A DNA stretch of 24,066 nt from positions 1 to 24,066 of IMG/VR virus record IMGVR_UViG_3300017963_000738. One strand, given 5' to 3'. The position numbers and the translations under genes are program-made. The DNA comes from a virus. Position 1 is the stretch's first letter, and the number at the start of each line of letters is the position of its first letter. Below the pieces are notes generated by a model. The model made no database searches. It saw only the letters and a list, made by a program, of their open reading frames with translations, and was not told the origin of the DNA. Shown here in pieces: positions 4,883 through 18,984 of this stretch.

Positions 4883-5014
4883 ATGCCCAAAGCACTACAT
4901 AAAAAACTTGCACGTTCTGCCCGAAAGAAGGGCTTAAAGGGAAAACGCAAAGACGCCTATGTTTATGGCACGATGAAAAAGATCGAGAGGCGTAAAGGTA
5001 AGTCCAGACGGTAA
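4883..5014 (+). CDS. small highly basic phage protein (AYVYGTMKK type)
   Basis: This 43-residue protein begins MPKALHKKLARSARKKGLKG and contains DAYVYGTMKKIERRKGKS. About 40% of its residues are Lys or Arg. Similar tiny proteins with a KKGL.GKRKDAYVYGT core occur in other phage packaging regions, to my recollection, without an assigned function. An in-frame ATG exists at 4871, but 4883 has GGGG at SD distance and matches the usual MPKAL-like start. It lies between the small and large terminase genes, so a DNA-binding accessory role is a reasonable guess. It is separated from the terL ATG by 35 nt. Confidence 0.6.
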   Translation: MPKALHKKLARSARKKGLKGKRKDAYVYGTMKKIERRKGKSRR

Positions 5015-5049
5015 ATATAAACAAATTTCCCCCTCAGCAGCTTGCTCGA

Positions 5050-6634
5050 ATGGAGAAACATCTTGAGATTAGCCGGAACGACCTCATTGCGTTCGGAAAG
5101 TTGTTTCTCAAGGGAGATTTTGGAAAATCTACCACACCGGAATTTCACAGAGAGATTGCAAGGGCATATCTCGCTGATGATGCCACAAAGCAATTAGCAA
5201 TTATAATTGCAAGGGGGCACGCCTAAAACTACACTCACCAAAGCCTTTATTTTACATAAGTTTCTTTTTCATAAAAAAGGCGATCCACCTCTATTCTTCG
5301 GTTGGGTTGCGGATTCTCTCGGCAAATCATGGAGAAATGTCGAGTACATCTCTCAGCAGATCATGTACAACGAGAGGATCAAGACTTACTTTGGAGACCA
5401 GTGCGGTAAACATTTCAACAAGAAATGGACCGAGCAGGACATAGTCTTAGCCAATGACTGCACCCTTATTTCGAGATCGAACGCACGAAGTCTCAGGGGT
5501 GAGACCAAGGGTTCCGTAATCGGCGGTTCCCAAAGATACAATGTTATTATTCTCGACGATATTGAAAACGAAGAAAACACGCTCACTTTAGAATCCCGTA
5601 CCAAAATAAAACGTACCGTCACCAATGCTGTATATCCGGCTCTTGATATTCAGGATGGACGATTAATATTCAACGGTACACCCGTTCATTACGATGCTCT
5701 TTGCCAAAATATTTTAGACGGCTGGAAGAAAGCTGTCCACGACGGAACCGAGGATGACTACAGTTGGCTGGTGATTACCTATAAGGCTTCACAACCGACC
5801 ATGCCGGGCGGTGTTCTTTGGGAATCCTACATTCCCCGTAAAGAACTCGACAAGCGAAAACAGTTCTATATCGACAATAACAACCTTCCCGGATACTACC
5901 AGGAATATGAACTCGAACCGCAGGGCAATGAACACCGCATCTGGACAAGAGATCACTACATCATTCACAATGCTTCTTACATGTGGGATGATGTTGAAAA
6001 ACAAAGTTATTTGACATGGAAGAACGAAACCTTTCCGGTGAATTGTTTTTGGGGATCTGACCCGGCCACGGACATAGAAAGCCGTACATCTGACAATTCC
6101 GTGATTATGGTCATTGCGGAGGACAGCCTGAAAAGAATCTTTGTTCTTGAGTACATCTCCAAGCTTGCCATACCCCAGTTGGCACTCAGGGACGCAAGCG
6201 GTAACATGGTGGGCAAGATGGGTGTGGTGGACTATATTTTTGACCTTAATGACAAATATCACTGTTTGAACGGAACCGTGGAAGATGTCGGTATGACTCG
6301 CGGAGTCATGCAGGACATAGAGGCGGAGAAATTCAGGCGACACAGGTATGACCTCATCGCAATCCCGACGGAACCAGAGGGACGGGAGAAAATCAACAAA
6401 ATCAAGACCGGACTTAACACCATGTTTTCCTATAGGCTTATACACTACAGGGATGAACACTATACTCTCAGGGAACAGACAGAAAATTTTGGGCCGAAAA
6501 TGAAACATGATGATGAGATAGAAACTCTTCTCTTTGCGACTTTAAATATGTATCCCCCTGAATATAAAAAGAAAAGATTGAATAAATGGAATCGTATTCC
6601 TGCTAAAAAACCTAAAAGTTGGGTAGTTACATGA
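5050..6634 (+). CDS. terL: terminase large subunit, requires +1 frameshift at 5224
   Basis: This is the ATP-driven packaging motor with nuclease. The first frame (5050-5226) encodes 58 residues ending AIIIARGHA and then TAA. Skipping T5224 continues K-T-T-L and 469 residues to TGA 6632-6634, about 527 in total, a normal size. Numbering the joined product: Walker A RGHAKTT 55-61; Walker B VIILDDIE with D169/D170 and E172; nuclease acids D337 (FWGSDPATD), E411/D412 (VEDVGMTRG) and D487/D488 (HDDE). All catalytic positions are intact, so the gene looks functional apart from the shift. ATG 5050 lacks a clear SD, and the frame is open upstream to 5002. The 3' end overlaps the portal ATG. The cause is a programmed +1 shift, a mutation or an assembly insertion. 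Confidence 0.85.
5212..5228 (+). promoter_or_regulatory. candidate prfB-like +1 ribosomal frameshift site in terL
   Basis: The in-frame codons are AGG GGG CAC GCC TAA, then AAC. AGGGGG is an SD-like hexamer placed three bases before the codon that precedes the stop. This matches the spacing in the release-factor-2 gene site (AGG GGG TAT CTT TGA). A +1 slip on GCC moves the reading to AAA ACT, completing the Walker A Lys-Thr-Thr. Re-pairing of an Ala tRNA on CCT would be imperfect (first position mismatched), which is a weakness. AGG and GGG also encode the conserved Arg-Gly, so part of the match could be chance. Confidence 0.5.
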
Positions 6635-8856
6635 GCAAAAAGTTAGCTAAAGAAAATAGAGATTTATTCAACCAGTGCAAGACATCCACTTACGATAAGT
6701 GGCGCAGAGACCAGCAGAAAGCATACGACTTTGCACATTGCGACCAGCTTACCAAGAAAGAACTTAGTGATCTTGAAAGTGCCGGGATGCCCACGTTTAT
6801 CGTGGACAAGATTTCCGGCAGTGTGGATGTTCTTATATATTTTCTGACCGCCAACAATCCCAGTATACGGGTTGTGGGACGGGAGGGAAGCGACACAGAC
6901 CTTGCCTCTATCCACAACGCCCTTGTGGAGCATTGTTGGGATTTGTCGATGGGGAAAAGCGTTCATGGGCAGATTCTGAGAAATTCACTCACAAGAAGTG
7001 TCGGGTACTGGTTTATCTCTATCGACCCGAATGCCGACAGGGGAAATGGAGAGGTAGCCCTTGAGAGTCTGGATACATGGGATGTATATGTAGACCCGTC
7101 CTCGACTGACATTTTCTATCGGGACGCTTCCTTTATCATAGTAAAGAAAGACTTTATCCGAAAACAGTTAATGAACAAACTTCCCCAGTTCGCTGAGAAA
7201 ATCAAAAGGGCTTCCGGTAACGACGAACACAACACAGGCTATTCAGACAGAGATACCGTCCAATCCGAAAGCATCCAGCCTGCGGATATTTCCACCAGCA
7301 TCAACGGACAGGATTCAGACTGGCTCGACTATTACGAGAGATACGAGAAATACAAGGTCAGGTTCGTCACTGTAACGACCCGTACGGAACCATCTCAGGC
7401 CGAGATCGATCAGGTTAAACAGCGTGTGTCTGCTGAAGTCGCTCTCTTTGAGAAGAACCTCGCAACCGAGTTAAAGGACCAGGCTATCGGTCTGGAAGAT
7501 GCCTTTAACCGACAGACTATTTCCAAAGAGAGAATGAACTTCGAGATTCAGAAACTCAGAGAAGAAGCCAAACGAGCAGTCAAAGACTACGAAACAAAAA
7601 TCACAAACGATGCCATAAACAGCATAACTACCACACAGACTGTTGCGGTTACGGAAAAAGAATACGAGAAAATAAGAAAAAGCAAAGCCTTTAAAGACAA
7701 GATCGTAAGTGCTGTTCCATTCTACAGAGACAAGGTGAGGGTAATTGCTTCTATCGGGTCTGACACATTTCTCTACAAGAACGAACTCCCCGGCGAGAAT
7801 TATCCAATCATTCCCGTTCCGTGCATCTATACCGGAACACCGTTTCCCATGAGCGTGGTTCAGAAAGCCGTAGGGACTCAGCAGGAAGTCAACAAGGCGC
7901 ATCAGTTAATGCTTCACAATGCCGCTCTTGGATCGAGTCTCCGGTGGAAAGTCAAGAAGGGCGCAACGGATACAGACTTTCCCACACAAATCACTACACC
8001 TGGTGGGATCATCACCGTTCTTACTGGGAATCTGGACGACGTAAAAGAAGTTCTTCCGGCACAGCTTAATCAGGCATTTTTCAGTGTTGCTGAGAAGGGT
8101 GAGCAGATCATTGAAGAACTCATGGGAGCCAAGGCGATTCTTCACGGGGGCAAGAGCAGTCAGGAGACTTTCAGGGGTTATCTTGCCGAAGAAGAAGCCT
8201 CAACGAGAAACATCAAGGCGTGGATGGGAAATGTGGTTGAGCCTGCGCTTGAACAAGTTTTTAAAGTCTTTACGGAATATGCCCAGTTTCTCTACAAGTC
8301 CTACAAGGTATTCCGCATTGTCAACCCGGATACCGGAGATGTGAAGAAGTACGAACTCAATATCCCGATCTATCCCGACCTGTCGAGAGATGTCGAGCGG
8401 TATCACGACTATGCTTCTACGATTTTCGACATCAAGGTTAAGCCGGGCAGTACCCTTCCGGTGAACAGGTGGGCGAAGTTAGAAGAATATACAAAGTGGT
8501 TCGAAGCTGGAATCATAGATGACATAGCGTTTCTCGCAGAAACAGACGTGAAGAACAAGGAAGAAGTCATCAAGCGCAAGTCCATTTACTCTCAGCTTTC
8601 TCAGGAAAACGAAGCACTTAAAGCGGAACTGAAGAAGAAGGACGGAACCATCGAGACCTTCACGAGAGAGTTGGAACATGCAGGCATTAAGGAAAAAGTC
8701 AAAAACGCAGATGTTGAAATAGATAAGATTGTAACCAAGGTGAAGTCTGATATGAACGCCCGTGCTATGGTGCATACGGGAGCGATGAAACTCATAGAAG
8801 AAAAAGCAAAACAAAGAGAAAAACCACAGAAAGTAGAAACGAAAAAGAAAAAGTAA
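6631..8856 (+). CDS. portal protein (P22-like)
   Basis: This 741-residue protein starts at ATG 6631, overlapping the terL stop (ATGA). It should form the dodecameric ring at one capsid vertex through which DNA passes. Support includes its position after terL and its length. The segment QQEVNKAHQLMLHNAALGSS with RWKVKKGA, and PVNRWAKLEEYTKWFEAGII in the C-terminal third, are typical of P22-type portals. An unusual coiled-coil-like stretch of about 100 residues (roughly 248-353, rich in Glu, Lys, Arg and Gln) interrupts the middle. A C-terminal coiled coil from about 645 ends in a Lys-rich tail, compatible with a barrel or helical tail extension. Overlap with terL implies linked synthesis of motor and portal. 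Confidence 0.85.
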   Translation: MSKKLAKENRDLFNQCKTSTYDKWRRDQQKAYDFAHCDQLTKKELSDLESAGMPTFIVDKISGSVDVLIYFLTANNPSIRVVGREGSDTDLASIHNALVEHCWDLSMGKSVHGQILRNSLTRSVGYWFISIDPNADRGNGEVALESLDTWDVYVDPSSTDIFYRDASFIIVKKDFIRKQLMNKLPQFAEKIKRASGNDEHNTGYSDRDTVQSESIQPADISTSINGQDSDWLDYYERYEKYKVRFVTVTTRTEPSQAEIDQVKQRVSAEVALFEKNLATELKDQAIGLEDAFNRQTISKERMNFEIQKLREEAKRAVKDYETKITNDAINSITTTQTVAVTEKEYEKIRKSKAFKDKIVSAVPFYRDKVRVIASIGSDTFLYKNELPGENYPIIPVPCIYTGTPFPMSVVQKAVGTQQEVNKAHQLMLHNAALGSSLRWKVKKGATDTDFPTQITTPGGIITVLTGNLDDVKEVLPAQLNQAFFSVAEKGEQIIEELMGAKAILHGGKSSQETFRGYLAEEEASTRNIKAWMGNVVEPALEQVFKVFTEYAQFLYKSYKVFRIVNPDTGDVKKYELNIPIYPDLSRDVERYHDYASTIFDIKVKPGSTLPVNRWAKLEEYTKWFEAGIIDDIAFLAETDVKNKEEVIKRKSIYSQLSQENEALKAELKKKDGTIETFTRELEHAGIKEKVKNADVEIDKIVTKVKSDMNARAMVHTGAMKLIEEKAKQREKPQKVETKKKK

Positions 8857-11407: not shown

Positions 11408-11417
11408 GGAGGTAATC

Positions 11418-11849
11418 ATGGCCGGTTTAGATCGAGTATATTTCGGCAACAACTCCGATAAGTTTGTCACGAGTTCCATACGTGCTCAGGGTCTGGTTGA
11501 TTCACCGCTTATCAGTTCTGGAATCAGAATCGGAACCGCTGGAACCACTAATGCTGTTGAAATTCCTCCCTTGTCGATTGTGACAAAGGTAGGGTTGTGG
11601 AATACCGGAACCGCCATCAGTGGAGCTACGCTCTGCGTTGGTGTTGAGGGTACTATCGACAAGTTTCTCGACAGTGTAAGCACTATCGCTGCAAACGACA
11701 TCAAGATGAGTGGACTTGCCGGTGCGGTTAATGCCGATCCTGTCGGCGGAGCCTACTTCGCCAGTGGCGGGGTAATCCAACTCGGTGTCGGTGCTGGTAC
11801 AGATGACTCAACCGTTAAAGTTCTTGTGTGGTACACCGGGACAAGCTAA
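11418..11849 (+). CDS. small virion protein, probable capsid decoration protein, copy A
   Basis: This 143-residue protein begins MAGLDRVYFGNNSDKFVTSS. ATG 11418 follows AAGGAGG, and the frame's earlier possible starts lie inside the capsid gene. The sequence is Gly/Ser/Thr/Val-rich beta with almost no charged helices, typical of small capsid-surface proteins. It is about 70% identical to the next gene, with conserved blocks DSPLISSGIRI, VEGTIDKFLD, NADPVGGAYFASGGVIQL and the terminal VWYTGTS. Tandem position right after the major capsid gene supports a role in decorating or cementing the head. No enzymatic motif is visible. Confidence 0.7.
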   Translation: MAGLDRVYFGNNSDKFVTSSIRAQGLVDSPLISSGIRIGTAGTTNAVEIPPLSIVTKVGLWNTGTAISGATLCVGVEGTIDKFLDSVSTIAANDIKMSGLAGAVNADPVGGAYFASGGVIQLGVGAGTDDSTVKVLVWYTGTS

Positions 11850-11864
11850 AAGTTGGAGGTTAAT

Positions 11865-12293
11865 ATGTCAACTGACAGAGTTTATCTCGGTAACAAGAAA
11901 AACAAGTTTCAAATGAGTTCCATCAGACTTCAGGGGATGTGCGACTCTCCGCTTATTAGTTCCGGCATTCGGATTAATTCGACCGGTACTACTGACGCGG
12001 TGGAGGTTCCGCCTCTGTCAATCGTCCACAAGGTCGGCTTGTGGGTCTCTGCAACCGCTCTTGCTTCTGTAACTATCGACGTAGGAGTGGAAGGTACTAT
12101 AGATAAGTTTCTTGACGGTATCACAGATGCTGCCGCCAACGACATTATCTATAGCGGACTTGGAGGCACGGCAAATGCCGATCCGGTGGGTGGAGCTTAT
12201 TTTGCAAGCGGTGGAGTAATCCAGCTTGCTGTGGATTCCGGTACTATGGATTCCACGGTTAAAGTTATGGTATGGTATACCGGGACAAGCTAA
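11865..12293 (+). CDS. small virion protein, probable capsid decoration protein, copy B
   Basis: This 142-residue paralogue of the preceding gene begins MSTDRVYLGNKKNKFQMSS. ATG 11865 is preceded by TTGGAGG; 12 upstream in-frame bases are ignored because the SD fits 11865. Differences from copy A cluster in surface-like segments (about residues 55-75 and 85-100), while the core blocks and C-terminus are nearly unchanged. The pair might occupy different capsid positions or form hetero-oligomers. A strong hairpin follows 7 nt after its stop, so it is probably the last gene of the head transcript. Confidence 0.7.
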   Translation: MSTDRVYLGNKKNKFQMSSIRLQGMCDSPLISSGIRINSTGTTDAVEVPPLSIVHKVGLWVSATALASVTIDVGVEGTIDKFLDGITDAAANDIIYSGLGGTANADPVGGAYFASGGVIQLAVDSGTMDSTVKVMVWYTGTS

Positions 12294-12353: not shown

Positions 12354-13376
12354 ATGAAAATCACGATAGTAACAAGGCGTCCGTGCATACGGGTCGCCAA
12401 GGAGGCATTTGCCCTGAAGGGTTTGGGGCATGAGATTAATCTCGTTTCACCCACAATGGACAGTGAGATTTACAATAATGTCCTGTACTGGGGAAACCCG
12501 AAAGAACTCGAAGACGCAGTAAAGTTAATTGACAAAGAAACAGATGTGTTTGTGGTTCATAACGAACCCACATGGCCTGCTATGATAATCAGAGAGGCTT
12601 TGCCGGACGCAAAGATAGTTCTGGACTATCACGACAGTATCTACTGGTACTTTGACGCAGACGCAGAAGTTGTGGCTCCGAACGAACAGGCAAGGTGGCA
12701 CGAAGAAGATTACTCTGTTGCGATTTGCAATGGGTTCGTGGTCGGTTCTGAGGGATCGAGAAACGAACTAAAGACCAGAACCGACAGACCGATCGCCATA
12801 GTTCCACCTGCTTCATTGAGAACGGACTACCGCTATCAACAACACAATTTTCAGGGGGGATTGGTTTCTCAGGGTGGACATGCAATACCCGGACATTTTA
12901 CACGGGTTGGAGAGCATTGGAGAGACTATACACCGCTCTATAAATATCTAAGAGGACGATGCAACATCTTTGCGTACGTTCCCACAGATGAAAATGTCAC
13001 AAAATATTACAAGCAATTTACAACGAATGTAGCTTCACATCCATACGACGTTCTTTTAAATAAACTGGGTGAACATACATGGAACCTTGTTGGAAACTGG
13101 ACGGATCATGTGGTCTGGCAGTATTCCGCACCCAATAAGTTCTACGACGCCCTCGCAGCCGGAATCCCAAGTGTGGTGTTTCACATCACTTCAGTTCAGG
13201 AGATTCTCCAAGAAGACAAGATCGGTATGGTGATTTCCCATCCAGACGAGCTTATCGACAGATGGGACGAAGCCCCATACCTGAGAAAAGAACTGATGCT
13301 TAAGCGGAAAAAGTACTGCATGGAGAACTTTATCGGCAGAGCAATAGACCTCTACACGGAGGTGATCCATGCTTGA
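12354..13376 (+). CDS. glycosyltransferase, GT-B fold (GT4-like)
   Basis: This 340-residue protein begins MKITIVTRRPCIRVAKEAFA, a typical GT-B N-terminal strand-helix start. The middle has IVLDYHDSIYW and VVGSEGSRNEL. The C-terminal domain has the nucleotide-sugar signature region APNKFYDALAAGIPSVVF followed by VQEIL, as in family GT4 enzymes, with the Glu of the usual E-x7-E pattern partly replaced. GGAGGAGAT precedes ATG 12354; the frame upstream of this ATG lies in the hairpin. It should transfer a sugar from a nucleotide donor. Its place inside the structural block and its overlap with a second transferase suggest modification of virion proteins, though DNA or host glycans remain possible. 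Confidence 0.8.
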   Translation: MKITIVTRRPCIRVAKEAFALKGLGHEINLVSPTMDSEIYNNVLYWGNPKELEDAVKLIDKETDVFVVHNEPTWPAMIIREALPDAKIVLDYHDSIYWYFDADAEVVAPNEQARWHEEDYSVAICNGFVVGSEGSRNELKTRTDRPIAIVPPASLRTDYRYQQHNFQGGLVSQGGHAIPGHFTRVGEHWRDYTPLYKYLRGRCNIFAYVPTDENVTKYYKQFTTNVASHPYDVLLNKLGEHTWNLVGNWTDHVVWQYSAPNKFYDALAAGIPSVVFHITSVQEILQEDKIGMVISHPDELIDRWDEAPYLRKELMLKRKKYCMENFIGRAIDLYTEVIHA

Positions 13377-14115
13377 GCAACTCGTGATGTCGCCTCACGT
13401 TAAGTTTTTCGGTGAAACTGTAGCCAAGATATATAATCTCAAACTCGCCACTGAAGAAGACTACGATCCCAAAGCCCCAACGCTTTTTTGGGGAAACTAC
13501 ACGGGTTATGACTCTACCAGAATCGTGTGTCATACCGGAGAAGCTACGCTGGTTTGGGCAGGCAGTGATCTTCTGGATGAAAACAACATAAATCGTGTGC
13601 GCCCGAAAGAAATACGGCACATCGCTATCTCAAAATGGATAGATAAGAAATTAACATCTCGCGGAGTAGAGCATGAGTATATCGTGCTTCCGTCAACCGA
13701 CATAGATTTCTGGAAATCGGAAACACTCGGAAACAAGGTTTACGCTTACGCACCGGACATGCCTATCTACAGACGCTACCTGATAGACGAGCTTCAGGAA
13801 GAACTCCCGTTCGAAATGATAGTCACGAACAGTGCGGAAGACTTTACGAGAGAACAACTCAGGGAGATTTACAAACAATGTTTCATAGGACTCAGGTTAA
13901 CGTGGTGGGATGGATGTGCCTCAACGGTGCAGGAGCTTGGCCTGATGGGGCGCAGATCGGTATGGAACGGGGGATCGCTTCCAGCCCTTCCGTGGAAGAC
14001 CAAGCAGGATGTGATAGACCTCGTTATGCAGGAATCGAAAAACATAGGAAAGAAACAGGGTAAACTCGCAAAGTCGGTTTATAACGAGCTACGCAACGGA
14101 ATCCTCTCCAAATAA
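13369..14115 (+). CDS. second glycosyltransferase-like protein, short GT-B form
   Basis: This 248-residue protein starts at 13369 behind GGAGGTGATCC, one of the strongest SDs in the window, and overlaps the previous gene by 8 nt. GT-B C-terminal features are visible: IVLPSTDIDFW (domain boundary), KVYAYAPDMPIY, and CFIGLRLTWWDGCASTVQEL with GLMGRRSVWNG, which resembles the donor-binding helix. The N-terminal domain is short (about 95 residues), so the enzyme is smaller than most GT-B proteins and may act together with its neighbour. Role by context: paired glycosylation of virion components. Confidence 0.7.
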   Translation: MLEQLVMSPHVKFFGETVAKIYNLKLATEEDYDPKAPTLFWGNYTGYDSTRIVCHTGEATLVWAGSDLLDENNINRVRPKEIRHIAISKWIDKKLTSRGVEHEYIVLPSTDIDFWKSETLGNKVYAYAPDMPIYRRYLIDELQEELPFEMIVTNSAEDFTREQLREIYKQCFIGLRLTWWDGCASTVQELGLMGRRSVWNGGSLPALPWKTKQDVIDLVMQESKNIGKKQGKLAKSVYNELRNGILSK

Positions 14116-14151: not shown

Positions 14152-17100
14152 ATGGCTACACTTAGCGCACAGATAACCGCTTTATCTGGAACGGTAACTG
14201 ACGCAGATGAAGTGACCACATGGGTACAAGACGGTATTAAAGATGTAATTCGCAGGCTTCAGGTATTAGGAGCACCCTTGCACAGATTTGCTCAGGAGAT
14301 AAACGTGGGCACGTCTGGTCTTGCTCTTGCCGGAACTGCTGTGATTCTGGACGTTCACCGTGGAGGCTACGAGTGTCAGGAAGTTCCGTCCTCGATGAGA
14401 CATCGTTCAGGACGATCTACGAGTCTTCACCGTGCAACCACGCAGTATCCTCATTTCTACAGACTCAACAATACACTTATCGTCTTACCGCAACCATCCT
14501 CGGCAACCAATGCAAAGGTGTCGGTGGTTGTTCCGGCTACCACGGCTGGATCGTCTTCTTCGATAACCAACTTCCCGAATGAACTCGAATACCTCGTGGT
14601 GATTTACGCTTCACTTCAGAATCTTTTAGGGAAGATTTCAGACCTTGCGCTTCCGTCAGACCTGACCCTGCCCGTGCTACCCACAATCACGTCTTTCTCG
14701 GATGTTGCCACTTCTCTACCCACCTATACAGCGGTATCGCCTGTAGTCTTGCCCAATCCCCCATCGGGAGCGAATATTGATTTTTCAGGCATAGGCTCTA
14801 CACCTTCGTATTCCGCACCCTCGGTTATTGTGCTTCCAACCCTCTCTCTTGGTTCCGACCTATCCATCTCTGCATTTACCCAATCAACCTCGGCTCCGTC
14901 TGTTCCGGTGATAGAGATAACGAATGGTACTGTGGCGTCTTTCGGTACGGCTCCGACTTTTACGGCTCCTGTACTGGCCTTGACAGATGCGGTGACGCTT
15001 GACTCTCTCGTACTTCCGGCTACTCCCCCTGATCTTGACATTACGGTTAGCCCCCCATCACCTCCTGCACTTAAAGGTTTTACAACCGGCGCAATAACCA
15101 TGACGGAAGCGTTGCCAACCTACACCTCACCCACTACGACTATCGACGGAACGGCATGGGCAGACGCTTATCCAAACTATGCTACAGAGATAACAACTGC
15201 GTTGACAGCAATAACTAACAATCTAAATACGGATACTGTTGGAAAAAACTTTCTTATATCTGGCTCACTTGACGATGACAACGGAGATTTCGAGGCAGCC
15301 GGTGCGGACGGCACGGACATAGAAACAAACACAGACTGGTCAAAAAATAACTGCTCTGCGGAGACAGACAACGAAGCTGGATCAGGTGTGAATACCTACA
15401 ATGGATCGGATTTCTGCTGCAAGATTCATACAGGTTCAGATGATAGACCTTTTATACACTTGGTATTCGGAGGAGAAAATCTACTTGTAAAGAATTGTAC
15501 TTATCAAATATCATTTGACTATAAAGTATCAAATTGTACAGATGCAAAAGTAAAGGTGCTCTCAACCGCTACAGATGTAGAACATTCAATTGATTTGGAT
15601 TCTGAATCATGGGCAACCGTTTCGGAAACTTTTATTTGTACAACCACCGGAACATCGAGCGGACGTACCAGAGTCTATGCTCATGACGGTACAGACGAAG
15701 ATGGTAACGAAGTTGTATGGATTGATAACATATCTCTGAAAAAAGTAACCACTCTTGAAGAACTTATCAAGACTCAAATAGATACAGCAGCAACACAACT
15801 TGATGAGGCTGAAATTCAGGTAGATGCCTCGGTAGATACAGCCCTTGCCGCTATCGTGACTGCCGCCGGAAGAATTAACACGGCTGTTGCTCTTGCAAAC
15901 GGAGAATTTGATAATGCGGTTCTGGAAGCCGTTGGTGCTGAAGCAGAGGTAGATGATGCTAAAATCGACACAGCCTTAGACCTTCTTAACACTCAGGTTG
16001 ATTCTGCCGTGACCAATGCCGCAAGCGGTGTCACGAGTCTTGAAGCCGCCACTACCAGAGTAGCGACTGCCAATACCGAGATAGGTCTTGCAAACGCAGA
16101 GCTTGACAAGATGGCTGCTGAAACCGAACTGGATAACGCAGAAGTCGATAAAGCAACTGCTGAAATCGCAGAGGCCGCCACACTCATAGATGCGGACATT
16201 GACACTGCCGTGGCCGCCATTACTACCGCATGTGGACGAATCAATACTGCCGTTGCGTTAGCGAACACTCAATTTGATTCCGCTGTAACTCAGGCCGCCG
16301 CTGAAGACCCTGAACTGGCAGTAAGTTACGTTCAGGCAGGACAGGGATATTTGGGCGAGGCTTCCGGCGATGCCGGTGAGGTGGATGCCTATGCGAAAGA
16401 AGTCACTTCAAGAGTAAATCAGGTCAGAGGACAGATAGAAGTTGCCAAGGGATACATTGATTCAGGCGGTGGATATTCCCGTGTGGCTCAGGGATATGCC
16501 GCAGCAGCCAAGGGTTATCTCGGAACGGCTTCTGCCTATCTCCAGGAAGTAGAGCAGGATATTAAGGTTGCTCAAAGCTACACTTCTGTTGTGAGTGCCT
16601 ATATCGCCGCCGCTCAGGGATATTCCGAAGAAGTCAAAGCAAGGCTCGGATATGCCAATGCCTTTGTGGGTACAACCCAAAACAGAATCAACACCGGAAA
16701 CGCCTTTTTAGCAGAAGCAAAAGCGAGTGCTCTTGAGGCTGAAATTTATACCAAAGAGGTTTCCGCAAGAGTAGCACAGGTTGGTGGTTATGGTGTGGTG
16801 GTGGATGGATACCTCAAATCTGCTCAGGGATACGCTACTGAGATTTCTTCCAAGATAGGGATTGCTCAGGGGTATGTGGCAGAGGTTCAGGCAAGACTTG
16901 CCAATGTTCCTGCTAAAGTCTCTGAATACAAAGCAAAGGTTGAAGATGCCCTGAATACGTTTAACCTGGAATCGACTCAGTATAAATTGGAACTCGAAAA
17001 AGAAATAGCTGAGGCCAATGCCGTTTTGTCTGAGGAAAGTGCATCCAACAGCACCACTCTTGCCAAACATAAATCAGAGGTTGATTCTTATATAGCGCAG

Positions 17101-17979
17101 GTTAATAAAGAAGTTAATGAGTATAGCTCAAAACTTGAAAAGTATCAGGCGCAGGCTAAAGCGGAAATTGAAAAATTTAACGCTGAACAACTCTCCGGCA
17201 AACAGGCCAAGTGGATCGCTCAGAGACAGACCGAGATTGCCAAGTATCAGGCTGACATTCAGGTTGCCACACAGGAATTTAACGATGCCAATGTAGAATA
17301 TCAGGCAACCATTCAGGAGAAACTGACCGAAGCTGCCAATCTTCTCGCTTCAGAGACCGAAGAAAATAGACTCAAAGTTCAGAAATATGTGAGTGCTTTA
17401 CAGAAATACCAGACTGACGTAAACACAGAGATTCAGGAGTACTTACAGAAAGACGTGCAGGCTGAACTCGCAGAGTGGACAGAGAAAAGACGTAATCTCT
17501 TGGCAGAATTTCAGACCAAATCACAGAGTGTGATTCAGGTGTTTACTCAGGAACTCGCAGAAGCCACTCAGGAATTTGACTCTGAACTGAAAAACTGGAC
17601 GACCTTGATTGAGAAAGCCGTAAAGACGTTCGAATCCGAAACAGGGTACGACCTTTCACTATTTACCTCGGACGCACAGATGACCATAGCCAAACACGCT
17701 GAGGACGTAAAGAACGAGAACACAGAATTTCAGGCGAACATGGCAAAGTATCTCGGTGAGCTTCAGAAGGTTTCGGAAGTAAACCAGAGGCTATTGAATA
17801 AATATTCCGCAGAAATCGGAGCATACGGTTCGGAAGTTCAGGCGAACATCGGACAGTTTAACGCTCTCCTACAAAAGAGACAGATAAACTACGATTGGTT
17901 TGCCAATCAATATAACAGACTCAAACAGCAGTACGAACAGGGATTCGTACCATTTGAGATTAAAGGAGAAAATCAATGA
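14152..17979 (+). CDS. large mosaic tail protein: adaptor-like head, carbohydrate-binding-like domain, helical repeats
   Basis: This is a 1275-residue protein. Residues 1-165 (DADEVTTWVQDGIKDVIRRL, YRLNNTLIVLPQP) resemble head-to-tail adaptor proteins. Residues 165-333 are Pro/Ser/Thr-rich. Residues 366-533 (LISGSLDDDNGDFE, TYQISFDYKVSN, VVWIDNISLKKV) have the layout of a CBM4/9-type jelly-roll sugar-binding domain. The remainder is almost all helix: an Ala/Thr-rich part with two related repeats about 122 residues apart, AQGY-type heptad-like repeats (about 725-925), then charged coiled coil to the end. It may join the portal or tail hub and project as a fibre that binds glycans. ATG 14152 follows AAGGATAA; the stop overlaps the next ATG. 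Confidence 0.65.
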   Translation: MATLSAQITALSGTVTDADEVTTWVQDGIKDVIRRLQVLGAPLHRFAQEINVGTSGLALAGTAVILDVHRGGYECQEVPSSMRHRSGRSTSLHRATTQYPHFYRLNNTLIVLPQPSSATNAKVSVVVPATTAGSSSSITNFPNELEYLVVIYASLQNLLGKISDLALPSDLTLPVLPTITSFSDVATSLPTYTAVSPVVLPNPPSGANIDFSGIGSTPSYSAPSVIVLPTLSLGSDLSISAFTQSTSAPSVPVIEITNGTVASFGTAPTFTAPVLALTDAVTLDSLVLPATPPDLDITVSPPSPPALKGFTTGAITMTEALPTYTSPTTTIDGTAWADAYPNYATEITTALTAITNNLNTDTVGKNFLISGSLDDDNGDFEAAGADGTDIETNTDWSKNNCSAETDNEAGSGVNTYNGSDFCCKIHTGSDDRPFIHLVFGGENLLVKNCTYQISFDYKVSNCTDAKVKVLSTATDVEHSIDLDSESWATVSETFICTTTGTSSGRTRVYAHDGTDEDGNEVVWIDNISLKKVTTLEELIKTQIDTAATQLDEAEIQVDASVDTALAAIVTAAGRINTAVALANGEFDNAVLEAVGAEAEVDDAKIDTALDLLNTQVDSAVTNAASGVTSLEAATTRVATANTEIGLANAELDKMAAETELDNAEVDKATAEIAEAATLIDADIDTAVAAITTACGRINTAVALANTQFDSAVTQAAAEDPELAVSYVQAGQGYLGEASGDAGEVDAYAKEVTSRVNQVRGQIEVAKGYIDSGGGYSRVAQGYAAAAKGYLGTASAYLQEVEQDIKVAQSYTSVVSAYIAAAQGYSEEVKARLGYANAFVGTTQNRINTGNAFLAEAKASALEAEIYTKEVSARVAQVGGYGVVVDGYLKSAQGYATEISSKIGIAQGYVAEVQARLANVPAKVSEYKAKVEDALNTFNLESTQYKLELEKEIAEANAVLSEESASNSTTLAKHKSEVDSYIAQVNKEVNEYSSKLEKYQAQAKAEIEKFNAEQLSGKQAKWIAQRQTEIAKYQADIQVATQEFNDANVEYQATIQEKLTEAANLLASETEENRLKVQKYVSALQKYQTDVNTEIQEYLQKDVQAELAEWTEKRRNLLAEFQTKSQSVIQVFTQELAEATQEFDSELKNWTTLIEKAVKTFESETGYDLSLFTSDAQMTIAKHAEDVKNENTEFQANMAKYLGELQKVSEVNQRLLNKYSAEIGAYGSEVQANIGQFNALLQKRQINYDWFANQYNRLKQQYEQGFVPFEIKGENQ
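15823..16287 (+). repeat. internal protein repeat within the mosaic tail protein
   Basis: Two related units, starting at 15823 and 16189 (366 nt apart), encode DASVDTALAAIVTAAGRINT and DADIDTAVAAITTACGRINT, each followed by AVALAN and an FD-AV motif. The bases have diverged at many third positions while the protein is conserved, so this is an old internal duplication under selection for helix packing. Confidence 0.6.
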
Positions 17980-18473
17980 GCGACACAATCAAATACTCAA
18001 TAAGTGTGGAGCCAAGAGAAGAACTGACGGATGAACAATCCAATACCCATACCGTTATTTCCGGTGAGGTAGGCAAATCTTTAGGGGGAAGCGGAACAGC
18101 GGTAGTGACAGCGTATGATGGAACCGCTGCTGCCCAGGGATACCTGAACGCCACGGTCAATTATTTGGAGTGTATCGATTCTGACGACACCACGGACATC
18201 TCATCTGAGGCTACGGCTTCGTTCGTTTATATCAGAAACACAGGCTACACTTTTTCAGACGCAACCACTCTTGGAGATGCTCTCGCAAAGTCGGTCAAGG
18301 TGATGATAGGAACTACAATGATTTCTATTCTCGATGCTGGTGAATGTCTTGTCTTAAAAGATGACAATGCAGGGATAGTCTGTACGGGAATCCATGTAAG
18401 AACAGTGGATACAGACGGGTCTGAGAATGCCTCCGCCGGTCATTTAGCAGTGGAATATTTAGTGGTGGATTAA
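17976..18473 (+). CDS. small virion-type protein, tandem paralogue 1
   Basis: This 165-residue acidic protein begins MSDTIKYSISVEPREELTDE. ATG 17976 overlaps the previous stop and follows AAAGGAG. Beta-rich segments and the conserved blocks VISGEVGK, LGGSG, ISILDAGECLVLKDDNAGI and GSENASAGHLAVEYLVVD are shared with the next gene. Position between the long fibre-like protein and the nozzle gene suggests a tail or collar component present in many copies. No enzymatic residues are recognised, and the family is unknown to me. Confidence 0.65.
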   Translation: MSDTIKYSISVEPREELTDEQSNTHTVISGEVGKSLGGSGTAVVTAYDGTAAAQGYLNATVNYLECIDSDDTTDISSEATASFVYIRNTGYTFSDATTLGDALAKSVKVMIGTTMISILDAGECLVLKDDNAGIVCTGIHVRTVDTDGSENASAGHLAVEYLVVD

Positions 18474-18474
18474 A

Positions 18475-18984
18475 ATGAGTGATTCAATCAGATACAAAAT
18501 AAACGTCGAGCCAAGAGAGGAATTGACCGACGAACAAGGTAATACGAAAAACGTCATCTCTGGTGAGGTTGGGAAAAGGCTTGGCGGAAGTGGTGTTGCG
18601 GTAGTGACGGATTATGCCGGGGGCAATTCAGCACAGGGATATAAGGATGGTTCTGTTTATTATCAAGAAATTCATGACAGTACGTATAATCAATCTACTG
18701 GTGGCGGAGCTGAAATAACCGCATCTTTTATGTTTATTAAAAACACCGGTCATACCTATTCATCGGCTACAGTACTTGGTGAACCATTAAATAAAGCCCT
18801 CGGTGTTTATCTGAATCCTGGGACTACAACAATTTCCATTCTTGATCCTGGCGAATGCCTTGTTTTTAAAGATGATAATGCCGGTATTGACCCCACAGAT
18901 ATTGTACTTAGAACTGTAGATTTAGATGGCTCTGAAAATGCTTCAGCCGGTCATCTTGCTCTTGAATTTTTAGTGGTAGACTAA
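18475..18984 (+). CDS. small virion-type protein, tandem paralogue 2
   Basis: This 169-residue paralogue of the previous gene (about 60% identical by eye) begins MSDSIRYKINVEPREELTDE. The start lies 2 nt after the previous stop with only a weak GTGG-type SD, implying coupling. The middle (HDSTYNQSTGGGAEITASFM) differs and is longer. Its base composition is clearly more AT-rich than copy 1, as in the following gene. Its stop overlaps the next ATG by one base (TAATG). Confidence 0.65.
   Translation: MSDSIRYKINVEPREELTDEQGNTKNVISGEVGKRLGGSGVAVVTDYAGGNSAQGYKDGSVYYQEIHDSTYNQSTGGGAEITASFMFIKNTGHTYSSATVLGEPLNKALGVYLNPGTTTISILDPGECLVFKDDNAGIDPTDIVLRTVDLDGSENASAGHLALEFLVVD

Follow-up and report, generated by a model that had tools for sequence, protein, structure and literature searches.

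A probable Shine-Dalgarno-stimulated +1 frameshift site in the P-loop of a phage terminase gene, close to an intein insertion point

How can a phage make its packaging motor from a gene in which a stop codon and a change of reading frame fall inside the ATP-binding loop? This question is raised by terL, the gene of the large terminase subunit, in the IMG/VR virus record IMGVR_UViG_3300017963_000738, of which positions 1 to 24,066 were analyzed (this 24 kb stretch is referred to as the window). The packaging and head module, including terL, the parts of its site, and the neighboring portal gene, is on the plus strand. The first terL frame is open from 5002 and runs through GCC-TAA (5221–5226); the 5′ part of the gene, counted as 58 codons from ATG 5050 (5050–5226), ends in ...LAIIIARGHA, followed by TAA at 5224–5226. 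The 3′ part is located in the +1 frame at 5225–6634, where it translates as KTTLTKAF... and encodes the KTT of Walker A, the Walker B motif, the C-motif, and the nuclease domain before the stop at 6634. Because the +1 frame is closed on the upstream side by another TAA at 5204–5206, the change of frame must fall within the 17 nt from 5207 to 5223. The full site, AGG GGG CAC GCC TAA (5212–5226), consists of the Shine-Dalgarno (SD)-like hexamer AGGGGG (5212–5217), which also encodes the Arg-Gly of the P-loop, a 3-nt spacer CAC (5218–5220), GCC as the proposed P-site shift codon (GCC_U, 5221–5223), and the stop codon. A preliminary description of this DNA gave the sequence and position of the site correctly. 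Its claims that the +1 frame continues as KTTL with the later terminase motifs, and that the elements are arranged as in the +1 site of prfB, were also borne out, since these motifs are present in the shifted product, and the whole arrangement is retained in a diverged second contig (L002). The comparisons described below make it probable that functional SD-stimulated +1 ribosomal frameshifting produces TerL in the window phage and in L002.

The identity of TerL was assigned via PHROGs, NCBIfam, and a fold search. The joined product matched phrog_38 over residues 6–490 with an E-value of 4e-49, while the halves alone gave 3e-38 and 3e-3 (the 5′ part matched positions 267–317 of this family). 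When joined at GCC, the product aligned to uninterrupted relatives without a gap at the join. It contained ARGHAKTT, IILDDIE, the conserved D337, E411-D412, and D487-D488, which represent Walker A, Walker B, and the nuclease acidic residues. Neither TerL half had a match in Pfam, and a sequence search of the PDB was likewise without a match. Among the candidate joins only GCC yields ARGHAKTT; slippage at AGG_G or GGG_C was dropped because its product, ARGTPKTT, violates the P-loop consensus, and an alternative genetic code was dropped because the frame changes, and hence reassignment of the stop does not help. To locate the join in the fold, an uninterrupted relative, L006, was modeled in place of the window product; the model had moderate confidence, with a mean predicted local distance difference test score (pLDDT) of 75. 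In this model strand β1 spans residues 47–52 and the P-loop helix residues 56–71, which places the join (residues 57/58) in the P-loop, after β1 and at the start of the helix. The best fold matches of the model were phage terminases, including those of PhiV-1 (8dgc, E=2.5e-19), T4 (gp17, E=1e-15), and HK97.

The position of the terL start is uncertain. The FNITxPPxQLxxEE similarity to relatives reaches 5′ of ATG 5050 as NINKFPPQQLARM (5002–5050), a stretch that contains no ATG, GTG, or TTG, and no SD sequence precedes 5050. An ATA at 5017 is kept in the window, in L002, and in an in-frame relative, L003.

The identical break, with the same bounds of the shift window, was found in L002, which is a contig from another metagenome. 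Over 527 shared codons the two terL genes have 79.5% nucleotide identity (79.7% in the downstream half) and about 90% protein identity, and dS (synonymous divergence) exceeds 1 on either side of the break, which means that synonymous sites are near-saturated. The ratio of nonsynonymous to synonymous divergence (dN/dS) was 0.105 for the 58 codons before the break and 0.018 for the 469 codons after it; as judged by these ratios, both halves of terL are under purifying selection, which is strong in the downstream half. Counted by codon position, the substitutions were 8/5/25 for frame A upstream of the site; in the 300 nt that follow, read in the +1 frame, they were 3/6/45. The substitution phase flips at the site, and therefore selection sees exactly this frame switch. 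On this evidence the frame switch is conserved with both frames under selection, in a comparison of two independent sequences only. The 30 bases from 5200 to 5229, including the stop and the frame switch, are identical between the two phages. The nine identical codons at the site had a permutation P-value of 0.0016, and this tract is suggestive rather than decisive as a sign of a conserved signal.

Other relatives read straight through this region. The break was present in none of 20-odd TerL relatives at 38–66% identity and in none of 79 further loci found with the N-terminal part. Since about 95 other related loci thus lack base 5224, the extra base is a derived insertion retained in the lineage of the window and L002. 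DNA pattern scans of IMG/VR with GGNCAYGCNTAAAACNAC and an AAG variant returned 65 stretches, among which L002 was the sole terL, with no third example. Hence, relatives without the extra T, which the preliminary description named as evidence against a shift, do exist, yet L002 keeps both the TAA and the AGGGGG.

The shift would take place on the ribosome, at GCC, and presumably with useful efficiency. Once GCC occupies the P site and UAA the A site, the AGGGGG located three bases upstream would pair with the anti-SD sequence of 16S rRNA, and the mRNA would be strained. The peptidyl-tRNA-Ala could then slip to CCU, keeping its second and third positions paired, and decoding would restart at AAA, so that the P-loop reads ...ARGHAKTTL... 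without interruption and TerL reaches its full length of about 527 residues. When the slip fails, translation would end in a peptide of 58 residues, or slightly more, that lacks the motor.

The elements of the site were compared with those known from prfB and from other +1 sites. In a survey of prfB in more than 12,000 genomes, the AGGGGG is followed three nucleotides downstream by CTTT and then by the stop (PMC12421855), and three nucleotides is also the distance from SD to shift codon reported for +1 sites (PMC5009743), as found here. An SD match of at least five bases precedes 64% of the window genes compared to 6.5% of random positions; hence, these genes use Shine-Dalgarno starts, and the anti-SD of the host should be usable. 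There is no start codon at SD distance downstream of AGGGGG, and so the hexamer does not serve one as a ribosome-binding site. The preliminary description cautioned that AGG GGG also encodes the conserved Arg-Gly. While this dipeptide is ordinary in the family, its codons are not: from the codon usage of the phage the chance of AGG plus GGG is about 2.5% (0.198 x 0.126). The hexamer and the GCC are the same in L002, while L003 has AGG GGA and a GCG shift-codon equivalent, and other relatives have CGT GGT and similar codons for Arg-Gly. The further concern that GCC re-pairs poorly after slipping holds for the mismatched first position, but it is softened by two precedents, because at the UCC_U site of antizyme the slip from XCC_U to CCU likewise costs just one pair, at the first anticodon position (PMC10885494), and the yeast GCG sites of Ty3 and antizyme shift without any re-pairing (PMC5009743). 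On the other hand, the proposal that the phage senses termination efficiency finds no support as far as RF2 (release factor 2) is concerned, since both release factors recognize UAA, which differs from the near-invariant UGA of prfB. Rationing of motor synthesis, the other role proposed there, is no more than a possibility.

Several observations weigh against a functional frameshift. GCC_U is not among the +1 sites known from bacteria, and the first anticodon position would be mismatched after the slip. The stop context is UAA-A, unlike the weak UGAC of prfB; UAA-A terminates better than UGA-C, and thus the shift efficiency may be modest. No RNA structure beyond that of shuffled sequences was detected downstream of or around the site in either phage (z about 0), although prfB likewise needs no downstream structure. 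Only two independent sequences have the shifted site, and their identical tract is modestly unusual, with one longer and one equal run of identical codons elsewhere in terL. In the protein tree, L002 groups with the in-frame, intein-bearing L003 with modest support (87/86), which weakly suggests either loss of the site in L003 or its passage from one lineage to another. The branching order of the window, L002, and L003 was not resolved in the DNA tree, and loss in L003, short-tract transfer, and simple descent would all fit the data.

Some of the alternatives to frameshifting place the break in the record, in a dead gene, or in the DNA but not in the mRNA. The window is a single metagenome-derived contig of 24 kb, in which a base could have been added by a sequencing or assembly error; barring a systematic error common to both contigs, such an error can practically be dismissed, because the same base occurs in L002, from a different metagenome and with about 20% sequence difference, and there is no long homopolymer at the site. 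That terL was inactivated in defective phages or contigs would agree with the absence of the insertion from the related loci, but it is very unlikely considering the low dN/dS over the 469 codons past the break, the retention of the break across near-saturated synonymous divergence, the intact neighboring portal gene, and the lack of another terL in the window. The one-base insertion that the preliminary description kept as a serious alternative is therefore real relative to the other loci, while its reading as assembly error or decay is opposed by L002 and by the purifying selection. An in-frame mRNA could also arise by transcriptional slippage or by removal of a base at the RNA level, which would restore the frame too, and runs of five G and four A are present. 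However, neither a splicing nor an editing element was seen, and the usual slippage tracts are far longer than these runs, which makes repair of the RNA highly improbable.

In the remaining alternatives, which are the chief competitors of a stimulated shift, the break is genuine, but no evolved frameshift signal is involved. TerL could be made as two separate chains, the second translated from TTG 5207 or after re-initiation, which assemble into a working motor, in the manner of phage genes split by endonucleases; NrdA of phage Aeh1 and gene 43 of phage 25 each function as two chains (PMC2988022). In both phages the +1 frame does open with TTG 5207, but this triplet is also formed by the Ile-Ala codons of the in-frame L003, it is not preceded by an SD sequence, and the AGGGGG lies downstream of it. 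Moreover, the second chain would begin MQGGTPKTTL and lack β1, with the break inside the P-loop, between β1 and the body of its helix, so that a split motor appears unlikely. Alternatively, low spontaneous +1 slippage at an indel without an evolved stimulator might suffice if little TerL is needed. Such leaky rescue has parallels in known "savior indel" cases (PMC5009743), and it would fit the suboptimal GCC_U and the lack of RNA structure, but it is rather improbable given that the AGGGGG is at the exact prfB distance, has only the chance of about 2.5% given Arg-Gly, and has been retained by both phages, while the in-frame L003 has AGGGGA and other relatives have other codons.

As to the origin of an SD-stimulated site in this gene, the data showed that the insertion is close to a point occupied by inteins in relatives. 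L003 and L004, about 90% identical to the window in protein, and L005, 66% identical, contain LAGLIDADG-domain inteins between the P-loop Lys and Thr (L003:3507-4697; L005:887-1906), at the point equivalent to 5227–5228 of the window. The L003 intein has Cys as its first residue and resembles DnaB-type inteins, while the L005 intein, which matches the DnaB intein chain 6bs8, is presumably of class 3, because it starts with Phe and ends with CIAIESNDHLYVTKDFLLTHN. BLASTP detected no significant similarity between these two inteins, and the presence of dissimilar inteins at one point means that it was invaded at least twice. The extra base of the window and L002 is located three bases 5′ of this point, which we take to be within reach of a LAGLIDADG recognition site. 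Neither intein splicing blocks nor an intein remnant was found at the window site, which differs from that of uninterrupted relatives by only one extra base. The coincidence of the shift site with an intein insertion point, missed in the preliminary description, suggests an origin unrelated to regulation. Tentatively, the insertion may have destroyed the P-loop intein homing site in the essential packaging motor and been kept through the RF2-like +1 signal. It would be retained because terL becomes a poor intein target while frameshifting still supplies enough TerL, and the signal, acquired or exploited, would be supplied by the codons for the conserved Arg-Gly in the P-loop itself.

Directly 5′ of terL is a 43-codon open reading frame (ORF; 4883–5014) that is also kept in L002 and L003. 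Upstream of terL in L003 and L004 there is an ORF (about 2240–3160 in L003) that by eye resembles UDP-GlcNAc 2-epimerase, and which is absent from the window and L002. The end of terL is overlapped by a gene for a P22-like portal protein (6631–8856; Pfam PF16510, E=6e-46), followed by further structural ORFs. Two similar consecutive ORFs of about 145 codons each follow the putative capsid gene at 11417–12293, and a similar pair is located at 17976–18984; both pairs look like small structural proteins duplicated in tandem. Two adjacent ORFs at 12354–14115 also belong to the structural module, the first of which is weakly glycosyltransferase-like (PF13439, E=6.5e-4, below the cut-off). A 1275-codon ORF at 14152–17979 has long coiled-coil-like repeats and weak SMC-type matches without a specific family. 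No tRNA genes were found in the window. Phage records gave no DNA match to the window and protein matches at only about 25% identity, and a genome scan for related loci returned two, both remote.

SD-stimulated +1 frameshifting of such geometry is already known from prfB, and recoding in a terminase gene has been proposed before, in phage Hau3 (PMC5009743). No +1 shift in a terminase, or inside any ATP-binding loop, was found in the limited set of literature that was searched. If frameshifting at this site is true, the range of codons usable for shifting in bacteria widens, an essential motor can depend on recoding within its catalytic loop, and a testable case of recoding as an escape from an intein is at hand. 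In that case, metagenomic terL genes that are taken to be broken could also in fact be intact.

The closest likeness is to prfB, which shares with the terL site the AGGGGG, the 3-nt spacer, the P-site codon, the stop in the A site, and the short useless zero-frame product (PMC12421855, PMC5009743). The two differ in the shift codon, which is CUU_U or rarely UUU_U in prfB and GCC_U in terL, and in the stop, which is a near-invariant UGA followed by C in prfB and UAA-A in terL, although the latter is also RF2-readable. While prfB encodes RF2, which acts back on its own site, terL is a phage motor gene without evident RF2 feedback, and its site has been seen in only two phages. The antizyme site (UCC_UGA) likewise has a stop in the A site and the same single mismatch after the slip (PMC10885494), but it is eukaryotic, under polyamine control, and served by an RNA pseudoknot, while the stimulator in terL would be an internal SD.

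Among phage genes, the terminase of the Streptomyces phage Hau3 is another in which recoding was proposed, and there too an SD-like sequence precedes the site (PMC5009743); however, the ribosome is proposed to bypass a short stretch at a UUA codon, with a suggested role in regulation, rather than to make a +1 shift in the P-loop. Programmed frameshifts, some of them +1 (Listeria phage PSA), are known in other structural-module genes, namely those of tail chaperones of siphophages or the lambda type and of major tail proteins, where they give two products per gene, while the unshifted terL product has no evident use. The Lys^Thr point of the P-loop corresponds to TerL1-a, a classic intein site of mycobacteriophages (PMC5050341), and the inteins of L003, L004, and L005 are at this same Walker A position; the window and L002 differ from them in having no intein, but only an extra base three positions upstream. 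With regard to the possible escape from homing, the nearest precedent is T4 gene 60, where an out-of-frame insertion in a phage gene is also crossed by the ribosome and may shield the gene against a homing endonuclease (PMC5009743). However, gene 60 uses a 50-nt hop with nascent-peptide and hairpin signals, while terL would use a one-base shift with an SD-like signal.
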